Of a DNA stretch of 64,000 bases, positions 13,624-59,211 are shown piece by piece. The stretch comes from an uncultured Clostridia bacterium. GTDB lineage: Bacteria > Bacillota > Clostridia > UBA1212 > UBA1255. Within the stretch, counting starts at the first letter, position 1; each line of letters opens with the position of its first letter. Made by a program: the position numbers and the translations under genes. The DNA lies in the NCBI GenBank assembly GCA_904420095.1, contig CAJFUB010000028.1, positions 1 through 64,000 of the forward strand, written 5' to 3'. The notes under the pieces were generated by a model. It did no database searches. It was not told the DNA's origin and saw only the letters and a program-made list of their open reading frames with translations.

Positions 13624-16600
13624 ATGAACGATCGGGCGAAACATGAGGCAATAACGGACAATCTCTTGAGACGGCGCATTCCTGCGCTCCTTCTGGCTTT
13701 CCTGTTTGCGGTTTCTCTTGTTGCGCCGGATCATCATTCTGATTTTTCTCAGGCTGTCGTTAAGGCCGCGCCGGCAGATGACGGCGGGCTTTCGAATCAC
13801 ATTATCGATACCGTCAGTCCCAACCATGTCAAATTCAATCTGTTCGACTATTGGGTGAATACGCGCGACAGCAGCTACAGCAACGGATGGGAGGTCCAAA
13901 AGGGTATCAATCAGGGTCACGTATTTCTTTTCGGGGCTGGTCAAGGCCTGGGGCCGTGGAACGTCTGGACAGGAAACGAGCGGCATTATAATAATAATGC
14001 AAACAGAACCTCCGGTGTCCGTTATGGGGAATATCAGGGCGTTGTGAACAATATTCTTGCGGACGGATACCCGATTCTTACTCTGGAAGATGATGTGGCA
14101 GATCCCTTAAAAGGCCGTCCCGAATTTATAGATAATTACGGACTGGGTTCAAAGCTTACGGAATCTCTCGCTTATCTGTTTGATCCGGATATTGCCAACG
14201 ATTATAAAGTCTCCTATGAAAATGTGCAGGGGCTTGTGAAATACGACGGCAACGGCGGCTATATATACAACAGCCATGAGAACTACGCCGCCTTTCTGGC
14301 GTCAGAGCCCGGCACGCTGGGCACCAACGGAGAGGCGAGCGACGGGTACTTCGAGGTATATGACAGCTGGGCAGTTCCCAGCGGCGGCCTCACCTCCCCA
14401 AACGGACAGTTTTTCCCCTTTGACGGGGCGTCCGAAGTGTTCCAGACAGACTCAAACGGCAATTATACGGTAGATGCGGGCACAGGAACACTCGTTCCCA
14501 AAAGCAATGTGCCGCTGGAAACGGGAACCACCCTGAACCATTACATCGGCATGACCATGGAGACGGTGTTTTTGCAGCCGGAGGACGGCAGGATCGATGC
14601 CAATACGCCGATGTACTTTACCTTTTCCGGCGACGATGATGTGTGGATCTTTATCGACGGCGTACTTGTCTCCGATCTTGGCGGCATCCACGACGAGTGT
14701 TTTACCATCATCGATTTTGAAACCGGTACGGTCTATACGGGGCTCACGCCCATGATAAGAAACGACGGCGGCACCTTTTCCGAGGATATCCCCACGCTTG
14801 AGGAGCTGAAAAGCGCGGAGGCAGGCACAAGCACACAAACCGAATGGACATGGTGCGACAAGGCCGCGGATGGACAGCCGAATATAACCGGTACATATGC
14901 GGATTTCAAGACAGCGCACGGCATACAGTCCACCACGCTGAGGGCGATATTTGAAGCCGCTGAGCAGGAGGACTATCAGTCATGGGGGGACGGGATGGAA
15001 ATGTCCGCCGATACCTTCGACCAGAACACCCAGCACGAGCTGAAAATGTTCTACTTGGAGCGCGGCGCGGGCGCGTCCAACCTTGTTTTGTCCTTCAATA
15101 TGCTTGCCGTTCCCGCCTCCGGTGTTACGAAAACCGACCAGGACGGGAACCCCGTCTCCGGTGTGGAGTTCGAGCTTTGGCCGGCGCAGGTGAGCGATAC
15201 GGAAAAGGATGAAAACGGCAACGCGGCGCCGCTGATCGATCCCGAGACGGGACTTTATATTGCGGATATAAGCGCGGGAGAGCCTATTTGCAGCGCGGTG
15301 ACCGATGAAAACGGGCGGCTCAGCTTCGTCACGGACACACGAAAGATCATCAGCTTTCAGGAGCGGGCGCAGGACGGCTCCGATCCGCAGTTTTACTATG
15401 TGTTAAAGGAAACGGGACGGCCTGCGGGTTACCGCTCCAAGGGGGATATATCCCTTTATTACAGCATATATAACAAGAACACAAAAGAGGGCGTTTTGCT
15501 GTCGTATAACTACTGGCAGACAGGCGCGTACACGCAGGCGCTCCTCGATGTCACAATGACAAGCGAGCTGTATGCGTATTCCACAGACGCTGACGGCAGC
15601 CCTGTTGCTGGAGAGCGCATTGCGCCGTCGGATACGGCCACAGAAGATGAAATTCAGGAATATCTTGACAACGGCATCATATTCGCCGTGCCGATAAAGC
15701 GCATGAATATGTCGGGCTCGCTCTACGACGACGCTAATTTTAACGCTTTGTACGGTACGACGAATACCGGCTGGACGCTGATGACCGAAAGTATTGCGAA
15801 TAAGGCTACGGTACTGGAAGCGGCGCAAAAAATGGTGCTCGTTATGCAGCAGACGCGTCAGACAGGTACGATTATAGCGGAGCGCAACGCGCGCCAGCTG
15901 TTTCAGGTGACTATAACGAATATACCCGGTGATGTAAAGCTGTCTTACCCGTATTTAATGGGAACGGAAAGAGAAAACGAGAGTGAATATAACATCGCGT
16001 TTTACTTTGCTCCCAACGCAACCTCTCTTGACAGCATTACCGACGCTTCGTCTATCGTGCGCATCGCGACCTCCTATACGAACGGCGGCGATACGATACG
16101 CTTCGACCGGCAGTACGCCTCGCAGTTTTATATCCCGAATATGTTTAACCGCGTCCGTGTACAGAAGCTCAATTATTATGGAGAGCGCCTTGCGGGTGCA
16201 GAATTTACCATGTTCCAGACGTATTCCTATCAGGATCGGGACGGGAATGGAACACAGTACATATGGGACGCAGGCAGGGAAATGTACCGCAACACCGCCG
16301 TTGTAAACGAGGACGGCTCGCTGAAAACGCGGGAAGAAATCCTCAGTACGAAAGCGTGGGACACGGGTACGACAAGAGCAGAGGGGGCGACTGGCACTCC
16401 GGGCGCTCTTGATCTGGACGGTACGCTCGTCTTCCCAAGCAAATTTAACGATTATCTTCATGAATCGGCATCTGCCGAATATCAGGTTAATATAAACGAT
16501 ACCTCCACCTACATGGAGGAGGGCGAATATGTCATATTCGAAACGAAAGCGCCGGCGGGGTATGAGGTAAATGAAACGCCCATTACCGTTACGGTAAATG

Positions 16601-49656: not shown

Positions 49657-49696
49657 AAAGAGTGTACAATTATAAATAGGCAGGGAGTGAATCGTT

Positions 49697-50494
49697 ATAG
49701 ATATTTTAAGGGAAAAACAAGGGTATATCTGCGATATGGACGGCGTCATCTATCACGGGAACCGTCTGCTTCCGGGCGTCAAGGAATTTGTGGAATGGCT
49801 TTACAGAGAAAACAAAAAATTTCTGTTTCTGACGAACGGCAGCGGATATTCACCGAAGGATTTGCAAATGAAGCTGCGCCGGATGGGGCTGGAGGTCGAC
49901 GAAAGCCATTTTTATACGAGCGCGCTGGCAACGGCAAAATTTATCAGCTCCCAGAATCCTGGCTGCAGCGCCTTTGTAATCGGGGAGCCCGGTCTGTTCA
50001 ATGCGCTGCACGACGCCGGGATTACGATTAATACGGTCGATCCGGATTACGTCATTGTGGGGGAGACGAACAATTATAATTACGACAGTATCTGCAGGGC
50101 GGTGCAGCACGTATTGAACGGCTCCAAGCTGATCGGCACGAACACGGATCTTACAGCTCCTTTGGAGAATGGGATCGTACCGGCCTGCCGGGCGCTGATT
50201 TCTCCGATTGAAATGGCCACGGGGAAATCCGCCTATTATGTGGGAAAGCCGAATCCGCTGATGATGCGTACGGGACTGAAAATGCTGGGCGTCCATTCTC
50301 AGGACGCCGCAATTATCGGAGACCGGATGGATACCGATATTATTGCCGGCATCGAAAGCGGTTTGGATACCGTACTTGTCCTGACCGGCGTGACCTCGCG
50401 CGAGACCATGCAGCGCTATCCGTACCGCCCCAGACTCGTTCTGGAAAACGTGGGAGATATTCCGCCGGCCTCGGACCGGGCGCCGGCGCTTTAA
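49697..50494 (+). CDS. HAD-IIA (NagD-like) phosphatase with apparent AUA start
   Basis: A 265-residue sugar- or nucleotide-phosphatase of the NagD type: [17 protein letters not shown] (Asp nucleophile loop), [31 protein letters not shown] and [20 protein letters not shown]. No ATG, GTG or TTG lies between the upstream in-frame TGA and the catalytic loop. The first ATG (49736) is the M of DMDG, which would cut off the nucleophilic Asp. GGGAG ends 9 nt before ATA 49697, which gives [16 protein letters not shown]. So it seems to start at AUA, unless a base was lost after GTG 49687. The substrate is unknown. Confidence 0.75.
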
Positions 50495-53732: not shown

Positions 53733-54377
53733 CTATTTCGTAAGATTTTTGAGACTTTCCGGCTTCCCCATTACGATCAGCGTTTCGTTTTTATTGAAAA
53801 TATGATCCGGAGGGGGAAGAGGATTCATTTCGCCGTCCTTTTTTGTTGCAAGAATGCTGATGTGGTAACGCGTTCGAACTGATTTTTCAATAATGCTTTT
53901 TCCGCACCAGCTTTCCGGAACAGCCAGCTCGTAAATTGCGATTTCAGGCGTAAGCTCGACGTAATCGAAAATGTTTTTTGCGCCGTATTTGATGGCGAGT
54001 CGTTCCGCCATTTCGCGTTCCGCATAAACGACGTTGTCTGCGCCGTTGCGCAGCAGCAGCTTTCTGTGTACGTCGCGGCTTGCACGCGCCAGGATGAACT
54101 TTGCGCCGTTATCCTTCAGAAGGACCGTTATTTCAAGCGCGCTCTGAAAATTATCCCCAATCGCTACAACGCAGATATCAAAATTTTTTATCCCTAAAGA
54201 CTGCATAAAGATTTCGTTGGTTGCGTCCCCGATTTCGATATTGTCAATGATATTGATGGCATTATCCGCCCGCTCTGCGTTTTTCTCAATTGCGAGAACG
54301 GAATTGCCCTCTTCAATAAATTTTGCGGCCATATGTCTTCCGAAACGACCGAGACCGATAATTAAAATAGATTTCAT
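53733..54377 (-). CDS. ktrA: KtrA/TrkA-type potassium uptake regulatory subunit
   Basis: A 214-residue RCK protein. GLGRFGRHMAAKFIEEG (residues 8-13 form GxGxxG) begins the nucleotide-binding N-domain; the C-domain (VELTPEIAIYELAVPESWCG...) ends LIVMGKPESL. It forms an octameric ring gating the KtrB/TrkH pore in response to ATP/ADP or cyclic di-AMP. 20 nt downstream of the pore gene, with GGAGG. Confidence 0.9.
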   Translation of the reverse strand: MKSILIIGLGRFGRHMAAKFIEEGNSVLAIEKNAERADNAINIIDNIEIGDATNEIFMQSLGIKNFDICVVAIGDNFQSALEITVLLKDNGAKFILARASRDVHRKLLLRNGADNVVYAEREMAERLAIKYGAKNIFDYVELTPEIAIYELAVPESWCGKSIIEKSVRTRYHISILATKKDGEMNPLPPPDHIFNKNETLIVMGKPESLKNLTK

Positions 54378-54397: not shown

Positions 54398-55753
54398 TTA
54401 ACCGATCTGCACCTTCTCAAGCGGAAGAGAAGAGATCTTAATATTTTTATTCGAGGAAAATGCGAGAAGCATCGTCATAGAGCCAACCCTGCCGAATATC
54501 ATCAGAAAACAGAGGATCAGACACGATACGCTCCCAAGCGTTGGCGTGAGTCCTACGGAAAGGCCCACCGTCGCGATAGCGGATACCGTTTCAAAGAGTG
54601 CATCCAGGAAAGCGATGCCTTCGATGCGCGATATGAGAACGGCGCCTCCGCAGGAGAGCAGCAAATACAGCATAAATACGCAGGAGGCCGTCCGTGCAAT
54701 GCCGTCTTCCATCCGGCGGCCGAACGCTTCCACGGATTTTCTGTGGCGGAAGGTGGTTATGATCGAAAGCATCAATACGGCAAACGTCGTCGTTTTGATT
54801 CCTCCCGCCGTAGAGCCTGCCGATCCGCCGATCATCATCAGGCATATGAGGATAAATCTGCCGGCCTCCGTCATCTTCGCCAGCTCTACGGTGTTGAAGC
54901 CTGCCGTTCTGGCGCTGACAGACTGAAAGAAGGAGGCCGCCATTTGCTCTGAAAGGGATTTATCATGGTAGGCGGCTCCGCCGTGCTCTGTCAGGAACAA
55001 AAGCAGCGCGCCGCCCAGGATCAGAAATGCAGTTACAAACATCACAATTCTTGTATGAAGCAGCATTTTTTTATATTGGAATTTTGAATCCAGCAAATTC
55101 CGCCAGACGAAAAAGCCAAGCCCGCCGATCACGATCAGCAGCATGATGACGAGATTAACATACCAATTGCCGACGACGCTGGTCAGCGAGGAATATTCGC
55201 CCTGAATCCCCATTAAATCAAATCCGGCGTTACAGAATGCGGAAATGCTGTGAAATACGGAATACCATATGCCTCTTCCGAGCCCCAGCAGGGGGCAGAA
55301 GTAAAACGCAAGCAGCAGCGCACCGATTCCTTCTATGAGTAGAGTCCCCAGAGAAATAAATTTCGTCATACGGACGATCCCGCCCAGCTGCGGCGCGGAA
55401 ATAGAGCTCTGCATCAGAGATCGCGATGCAAGCCCGATATTTTTCTTTGTCAAAGAAAGCGCAGAGATACAGATTGTCATGAATCCGATCCCGCCGATTT
55501 GAATCAGCACGAGGATCACCGCCTGGCCGAACAGCGTCCAATTTGTGTAAGTATCGGCTCTGATCAGACCGGTCACGCACGTCGAGGAGGTTGCGGTGAA
55601 AAAAGCCGTCAGAATGGAATGCTCTGAACTGTCGCGCACGGCAGCGGGCAACCTGAGAAGTACGGTGCCGAGAAGGATGATGAAACAGTATCCCAAAAGT
55701 ATGATTTTCATAGGCGAAAGCTGCCTGAAATAAGATACAAGCTTTTTTGTTAT
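54398..55753 (-). CDS. ktrB: KtrB/TrkH-type potassium transporter pore
   Basis: A 451-residue (from ATA) TrkH-family pore with four pore loops: TATSSTCVTGL, FHSISAFCNAGFDL, SVSARTAGFNTVE and TVSAIATVGLSVGL. It takes up K+ with KtrA. The first ATG in frame (55711) falls just before the first membrane helix and lacks a ribosome site. Upstream, in frame, AGGAGG (55765-55770) is followed at 8 nt by ATC (55756) and at 11 nt by ATA (55753), which gives TKKLVSYFRQLSPMKIILLG, the normal KtrB N-terminus. So the gene probably initiates at AUC or AUA. Confidence 0.85.
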   Translation of the reverse strand: MTKKLVSYFRQLSPMKIILLGYCFIILLGTVLLRLPAAVRDSSEHSILTAFFTATSSTCVTGLIRADTYTNWTLFGQAVILVLIQIGGIGFMTICISALSLTKKNIGLASRSLMQSSISAPQLGGIVRMTKFISLGTLLIEGIGALLLAFYFCPLLGLGRGIWYSVFHSISAFCNAGFDLMGIQGEYSSLTSVVGNWYVNLVIMLLIVIGGLGFFVWRNLLDSKFQYKKMLLHTRIVMFVTAFLILGGALLLFLTEHGGAAYHDKSLSEQMAASFFQSVSARTAGFNTVELAKMTEAGRFILICLMMIGGSAGSTAGGIKTTTFAVLMLSIITTFRHRKSVEAFGRRMEDGIARTASCVFMLYLLLSCGGAVLISRIEGIAFLDALFETVSAIATVGLSVGLTPTLGSVSCLILCFLMIFGRVGSMTMLLAFSSNKNIKISSLPLEKVQIG

Positions 55754-55785
55754 GATGCCTGATGCCTCCTCTTTTACAGCGCACT

Positions 55786-55813
55786 ATTATACATCGTTTT
55801 TTGTGAAAATCAA
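55786..55813 (-). promoter_or_regulatory. Promoter of ktrB-ktrA
   Basis: Minus-strand TTGATT (55808-55813), 16-nt spacer, TATAAT (55786-55791). Confidence 0.65.
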
Positions 55814-55817
55814 CTAT

Positions 55818-55848
55818 AAATAAAAATGCGGCCATACTGTATGGCCGC
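55818..55848 (-). terminator. Terminator of the coaD-like gene
   Basis: GCGGCCATA, CAG loop, TATGGCCGC on the minus strand, followed by ATTTTTATTTAT. It lies between coaD-like and the ktr promoter. Confidence 0.75.
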
Positions 55849-58809: not shown

Positions 58810-58815
58810 ATTAAA

Positions 58816-59211
58816 ATGGAGGAAGTGCTTCAATTTTTGCGGGAAAATTCCACGTTTTATCTTGCTACGGCGGAGGAAGATCAACCGCGTGTCCGCCCGT
58901 TTGGCGCCGTGGACCTTTATGAGGGGAAGCTTTATATCCAAACGGGAAACACAAAACAAGTGTTTGCACAGATGCTCAAAAATCCTAATATTGAAATCTG
59001 CGCGTCAGGGAAAGACGGACGCTGGCTGCGGGTTGCAGCAAAAGCCGTACGCGACGACAGACGGGAAGCGCGTCAGCATATGCTGGACGCAAATCCGGAG
59101 CTCAAAGATATGTATTCCGCAGACGACGGAATCTGTGAGGTATTTTATCTGAAAGATGCCGTCGGCGCGTTTTACACATTTGGAAAAAATCCGGAAACAG
59201 TTCGATTTTAA
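58816..59211 (+). CDS. Pyridoxamine 5-prime-phosphate oxidase-fold protein
   Basis: A 131-residue split-barrel flavoprotein: STFYLATAEEDQPRVRPFGA, LYIQTGNTKQVFAQMLKNP, NIEICASGKDGRWLRVAAKA. Small members of this fold bind FMN, F420 or haem and reduce varied substrates; the role is unknown. ATG 58816 lies 14 nt from AAGGGG, while an in-frame ATT at 58810 lies 8 nt from it, so an AUU start two codons earlier is possible. It precedes a Gfo/Idh/MocA gene by 13 nt, an operon. Confidence 0.82.
   Translation: MEEVLQFLRENSTFYLATAEEDQPRVRPFGAVDLYEGKLYIQTGNTKQVFAQMLKNPNIEICASGKDGRWLRVAAKAVRDDRREARQHMLDANPELKDMYSADDGICEVFYLKDAVGAFYTFGKNPETVRF

Follow-up and report, generated by a model that had tools for sequence, protein, structure and literature searches.

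The window analysed here is a 64,000-nt stretch of a 2.56-Mb metagenome-assembled genome (MAG; G000 below), whose nearest named relatives are uncultured Clostridia of animal guts. A two-gene potassium transporter operon, ktrBA, lies behind coaD in this window (Table 1). The KtrB reading frame is intact across 451 aa, and its TrkH domain (residues 34-435) scores above the family cut-off; the NCBIfam model TIGR00933 gives 318 bits, just below its cut-off of 331. The operon partner KtrA carries PF02254 (TrkA_N) and PF02080 (TrkA_C), as expected of a KtrB/TrkH-type transporter. The same genome holds a second ktrB paralog with 39% identity (G000:C39:99405-100658).

Table 1. Features of the window discussed in the text (positions are those of the window)
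Feature	Positions	Strand	Remarks
HAD-IIA hydrolase gene, putative ATA start	49697..50494	+	AGGGAG at 49682-49687, 9 nt before ATA
ktrA, regulatory subunit	53733..54377	-	ATG 8 nt after GGAGGT
ktrB, TrkH/KtrB-family potassium channel subunit, from candidate AUC/AUA	54398..55756	-	PF02386, 191 bits (cut-off 27)
ATG 55711, first canonical in-frame codon of ktrB	55709..55711	-	In conserved SPM motif; lacks a Shine-Dalgarno sequence; probably an internal Met
Candidate ktrB start ATA	55751..55753	-	11 nt from Shine-Dalgarno sequence; aligns with G001 ktrB ATG
Candidate ktrB start ATC	55754..55756	-	8 nt from Shine-Dalgarno sequence, the best spacing
Shine-Dalgarno sequence AGGAGG of ktrB	55765..55770	-	Short leader
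Sigma-70-like promoter of ktrBA, TTGATT-16-TATAAT	55786..55813	-	10/12 matches; same layout 5' of the L003 ktrB
Intrinsic terminator between coaD and ktrB	55828..55848	-	Ends coaD
Pyridoxamine-5'-phosphate-oxidase-like gene (flavin oxidase), ATG start	58816..59211	+	Aligns with L244, L246 and L249

The start of ktrB is unusual. From the first candidate codon, the frame reads ATC ATA ACA AAA AAG CTT GTA TCT TAT TTC AGG CAG CTT TCG CCT ATG, the last codon being ATG 55711. No in-frame ATG, GTG or TTG occurs between the Shine-Dalgarno (SD) sequence and this ATG, which has no SD of its own; the perfect AGGAGG lies more than 50 nt upstream of it. The coaD terminator and the ktrBA promoter place the 5' end of the mRNA just upstream of the SD, which leaves no room for a hidden upstream start, although the promoter match is weak by itself (0.7 such matches are expected per shuffled region). 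The ktrB leader contains no RNA structure beyond chance (z -0.14), and an Rfam search of the window gave no match to a riboswitch or any other known RNA. Neither leader structure nor an Rfam element thus offers another way of controlling ktrB.

Relatives of KtrB, the closest of which are about 70% identical in protein, point to the codons behind the SD. In G001 (L003), ktrB has the same promoter-SD-start layout with AGGAGG-9-ATG (MAQKFLNFIKNLSPM), and its ATG falls exactly at the ATA of the window. In G003 (L002), the ATG is one codon after that position. Codons 2-14 look translated: their in-frame BLOSUM sums against G001 and G003 are 28 and 34, compared with -3 to 23 in the other two frames, and randomly placed changes, equal in number, score as high with P of 0.010 and 0.003. 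The shared layout and the conserved codons make ATA or ATC the most likely start in the window. Spacing favours ATC 55756, while orthology favours ATA 55753, and the sequence does not separate the two. The strong-SD ATG genes of this genome prefer 7-9 nt, with 11 nt in 7% of them, so that the spacing of the AUA is longer than usual.

AUH codons (AUA, AUC or AUU) recur at this position in other genomes. The ktrB of G004, a MAG of the same genus from another project (L032, isolate Lapin-032), reads GGAGG-7-ATT (CACGGAGG-TTTCGCT-ATT-TTA-CGT), and its start context has no credible canonical start. Since G004 is an independent assembly, AUH in ktrB is not peculiar to that of G000. Three further relatives with 57-60% identity, L205, L038 and L041, show GAGGTGA..ATT, GGAGGTG..ATA and GAGGTGG..ATC, respectively. 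Each of them has a rival GTG or TTG that overlaps or adjoins the SD. L206, a member of the family to which L205 belongs, has GAGGTG as its SD and an ATG start behind it, and this favours reading the motif as an SD. An AUH start of ktrB is clear for two species of the genus and probable for these three relatives. L034 was rejected as an AUA case, as it has an ATG with AAAGGA.

Could translation simply begin at ATG 55711, the SD and the AUC/AUA being irrelevant or giving only a low level of an extended protein? This ATG is the first canonical codon, its Met is common to many relatives (L003, L004, L034, L035 and L040), and KtrB without 14 residues keeps all of the TrkH domain. A shorter KtrB could work, because the N-terminal stretch lies outside the Pfam and NCBIfam models. 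However, the distance from the SD speaks against this start, and so do L002, L005 and L036, which have Thr or Pro at the site and therefore need a start further upstream. Protein-level conservation of codons 2-14 and a promoter-SD-start arrangement like that of L003, whose start is ATG, point the same way. We consider initiation at ATG 55711 unlikely. The other explanation sees in the AUA an error of the assembly, a strain variant or the recent loss of a start codon in a decaying gene, with AUG in the functional allele. G000 is a MAG known from one assembly, and a single-base error or a strain mixture at 55751 may be present; the ATA is one G-to-A change away from the ATG of L003. The intact frame argues against error or decay. 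So do the two separate MAGs, with an AUA start of a second gene, mtaB, in both G000 and G004 and AUU in the ktrB of G004. The third-base changes all lead from AUG to AUH, codons known to retain initiation, and are not a random mix. An origin of this kind is distinctly improbable for ktrB. In its favour, all examined orthologs of the HAD gene have ATG.

The HAD gene is the second case in the window. Its product matches TIGR01460 with 143 bits (cut-off 100), and its open reading frame begins after TGA 49688, the first canonical codon being ATG 49736. The ATA at 49697 aligns with ATG in eight of the 11 orthologs (L046-L049, L052, L053, L055 and L056) at 62-86% identity; the ATG of the remaining three (L050, L051 and L054) is one or two codons earlier. 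The Asp before Met 49736 is the nucleophile, going by the established DxD motif of HAD enzymes, and DMDGV keeps it only with a start upstream of ATG 49736. No canonical start thus precedes the conserved N-terminus. AUA initiation of this gene is likely on these alignments. Its SD is weaker than that of ktrB, and AUH is found in none of the 11 orthologs. Because no ortholog shares it, the AUA of the HAD gene possibly reflects a recent change or an error. The original prediction had proposed the AUC/AUA start of ktrB after AGGAGG and the AUA start of the HAD gene, and both are well supported by canonical starts of orthologs at these positions. It had also proposed, with less assurance, an AUU start at 58810 for the flavin oxidase gene. 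This one falls away: L244, L246 and L249 have their ATG at exactly the position of ATG 58816, and the AUU is not needed.

From these examples, tolerance of AU(A/C/U) initiation throughout the lineage had been suggested. A scan of 814 kb of G000 (32% of the genome) does not support it. Among the 624 genes called there, 529 start with ATG, 47 with TTG and 40 with GTG, and eight lack a canonical start within the examined stretch. Convincing AUH starts number four in about 624 genes: ktrB, the HAD gene, mtaB and infC. A mechanical pattern (GGAGG, 5-11 nt, AUH, an open reading frame of at least 90 aa and an upstream stop without a canonical codon in between) yielded 31 matches for AUH. The same pattern with AAH (AAA, AAC or AAT), GCH and TTH yielded 32, 22 and 22. 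There is no excess of AUH over other codons behind a ribosome-binding site in this third of the genome. The pattern alone is thus not significant, and orthology carries the cases gene by gene.

The scan added a new case, an mtaB-like tRNA methylthiotransferase gene with a putative AUA start (L204:1160-2519 on G000 C39; also L225). We take the name from the conserved LGCKVN motif. For 77 codons from the upstream stop, mtaB has no canonical codon. At the position of its ATA, G001, G002 and G003 have ATG, and G004 has ATA. In G004, an ATG without an SD also occurs 18 codons upstream. The SD of mtaB is weaker than that of ktrB. The fourth gene, infC, has AUA in G000 (L086/L082), and each of the genomes examined (L075-L084) has AUA or AUU behind GGAGGTG (GGAGGTGG in L075).

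Several other open reading frames were discarded as AUH candidates. An in-frame ATG lies upstream in uppS and an upstream ATG in L189, spoIVA has a GTG after GGAGG, L103 has a downstream ATG with an SD, and the SD of the L188 frame is inside the previous gene. In L201, upstream coding continues in another frame. This frame (minus strand, 15027-15948) has other-frame coding across AAAAAATTTT, which points to a frameshift, a broken gene or an error of the assembly. Two observations were made in G005. A 615-aa frame at L165:3026-4874 (minus strand) lacks a canonical start over its first 70 codons and has an ATA soon after GAGGAATAGGAGGG, a possible further AUA start in the family. An amidohydrolase-like gene on the minus strand of L184, near 11694, has an ATA aligned with the ATG of its G000 ortholog and a rival in-frame GTG three codons upstream. 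The GC content is 49.6% in the sampled stretches of G000, 36-39% in G001-G003 and 46% in G004, which is a large spread in one genus. Single-gene trees disagree on whether G000 and G004 are sisters, with support of 85 from infC and 27 from ktrB, while the mtaB tree puts G004 outside with a support of 56.

A lineage whose start discrimination is relaxed by an altered IF3 or initiator tRNA, so that AUH is tolerated everywhere, would fit the count of four AUH genes in one third of the genome, with two of the four within 6 kb. Several findings point the other way. IF3 is found above the family cut-off in all ten genomes searched, infC retains its conserved AUA/AUU, AUH after an SD is no commoner than the other codon classes, and nearly all of the called starts other than ATG are GTG or TTG. 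In pairwise start alignments, the two AUH genes known before are the only ones of G000 that have ATG in a relative, and one ATT hit has an upstream ATG with an SD. A general relaxation of this kind is highly improbable, and gene-specific AUH starts remain the preferred reading.

A comparison of ktrB with ktrA adds to this. Among the 15 loci with both genes at 55% identity or more, ktrB has a non-ATG start (GTG, TTG or AUH) in 11 and ATG in four (L002, L003, L034 and L207). ktrA has ATG in all 15, and in 39/39 loci at a ktrB identity of at least 45%. An exact paired test (11 against 0) gives P of 0.001, an optimistic value, since it ignores phylogeny and the loci are related. The ktrB counts come from hand reading of the start contexts; the automatic caller mis-assigned L037 and L040. 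This difference between the two genes makes a weak start look like a recurring habit of ktrB, with AUH as its extreme form, and this view is the better supported one.

Reading by fMet-tRNA is slower at near-cognate AUH codons, and IF3 discriminates against them. In the Ktr complex, KtrA would be needed in excess of KtrB. We infer that ktrB is probably initiated by fMet-tRNA at AUA 55753 or AUC 55756 and that this weak start throttles KtrB synthesis. The perfect AGGAGG in a short leader would make such initiation possible. The channel subunit would then be made at a low rate, below that of KtrA, the gating subunit encoded next in the operon, which has AUG behind a strong SD and would be made at a higher rate. 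The AUH start would keep KtrB low relative to the KtrA gating ring, and its purpose may lie in setting the KtrB:KtrA stoichiometry or in limiting leak. IF3 would discriminate against this start. The absence of a canonical start, the orthologous position, the translated-looking N-terminus, the AUH of a congener and the contrast between ktrB and ktrA are the parts of this account read from the DNA itself. A bolder version is conceivable, though we hold it only tentatively: the weak AUH, GUG and UUG starts of ktrB in this group, next to a ktrA that always has AUG, might be a conserved and selected translational throttle, and the extreme AUH form might make channel output follow IF3 abundance or the state of growth, which would be a control of K+ uptake that has gone unrecognised so far.

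Gene finders that accept only AUG, GUG and UUG would truncate or miss AUH genes. Canonical-only calls would trim 14 residues off KtrB, remove the catalytic Asp of the HAD hydrolase and find no start of mtaB before the LGCKVN motif. If the pairing of a weak ktrB start with an AUG in ktrA survives phylogenetic correction, it would offer a simple and testable means for bacteria to set the stoichiometry of channel to gate, and ktrB and mtaB would join a short list of AUH-start genes. No paper joining ktrB with its start codon and translation initiation was found in the open-access literature.

AUH starts are a known, rare kind, to which ktrB and mtaB are apparently new additions. One known member is infC, which is autoregulated by its own product. 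Like ktrB, infC has AUH after a strong extended SD. Unlike infC, ktrB is not known to be linked to IF3 other than as a possible target, and its start codon differs between species (AUG, GUG, UUG or AUH). The view that such starts are known mainly for infC was too narrow, as pcnB, ccpN, cvfC1 and citZ have been published. In S. aureus, ribosome profiling and reporters identified ccpN (AUA), cvfC1 (AUU) and citZ (AUA) (PMC13009471). AUA and AUU starts with extended SDs gave about 10% of the AUG yield there, with one gene reaching up to 30% in rich medium (PMC13009471). These genes resemble ktrB in their AUH start and the reduced initiation expected of it, and ccpN and cvfC1 also in being conserved with a strong extended SD (PMC13009471). 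They differ in being other genes and in having been established by experiment, the case for ktrB being made by sequence. E. coli pcnB starts at AUU according to Binns and Masters (2002), as cited in PMC13009471; it is similar to what is proposed for ktrB in that a weak AUH start limits the expression of one gene, in another gene and phylum. The proposed KtrB:KtrA control is paralleled by Streptomyces sigR, in which a non-canonical start in a two-gene operon sets the ratio of the partners SigR and RsrA (PMC5472188). The sigR start is GTC and not AUH, and its regulation by IF3 was shown experimentally (PMC5472188).
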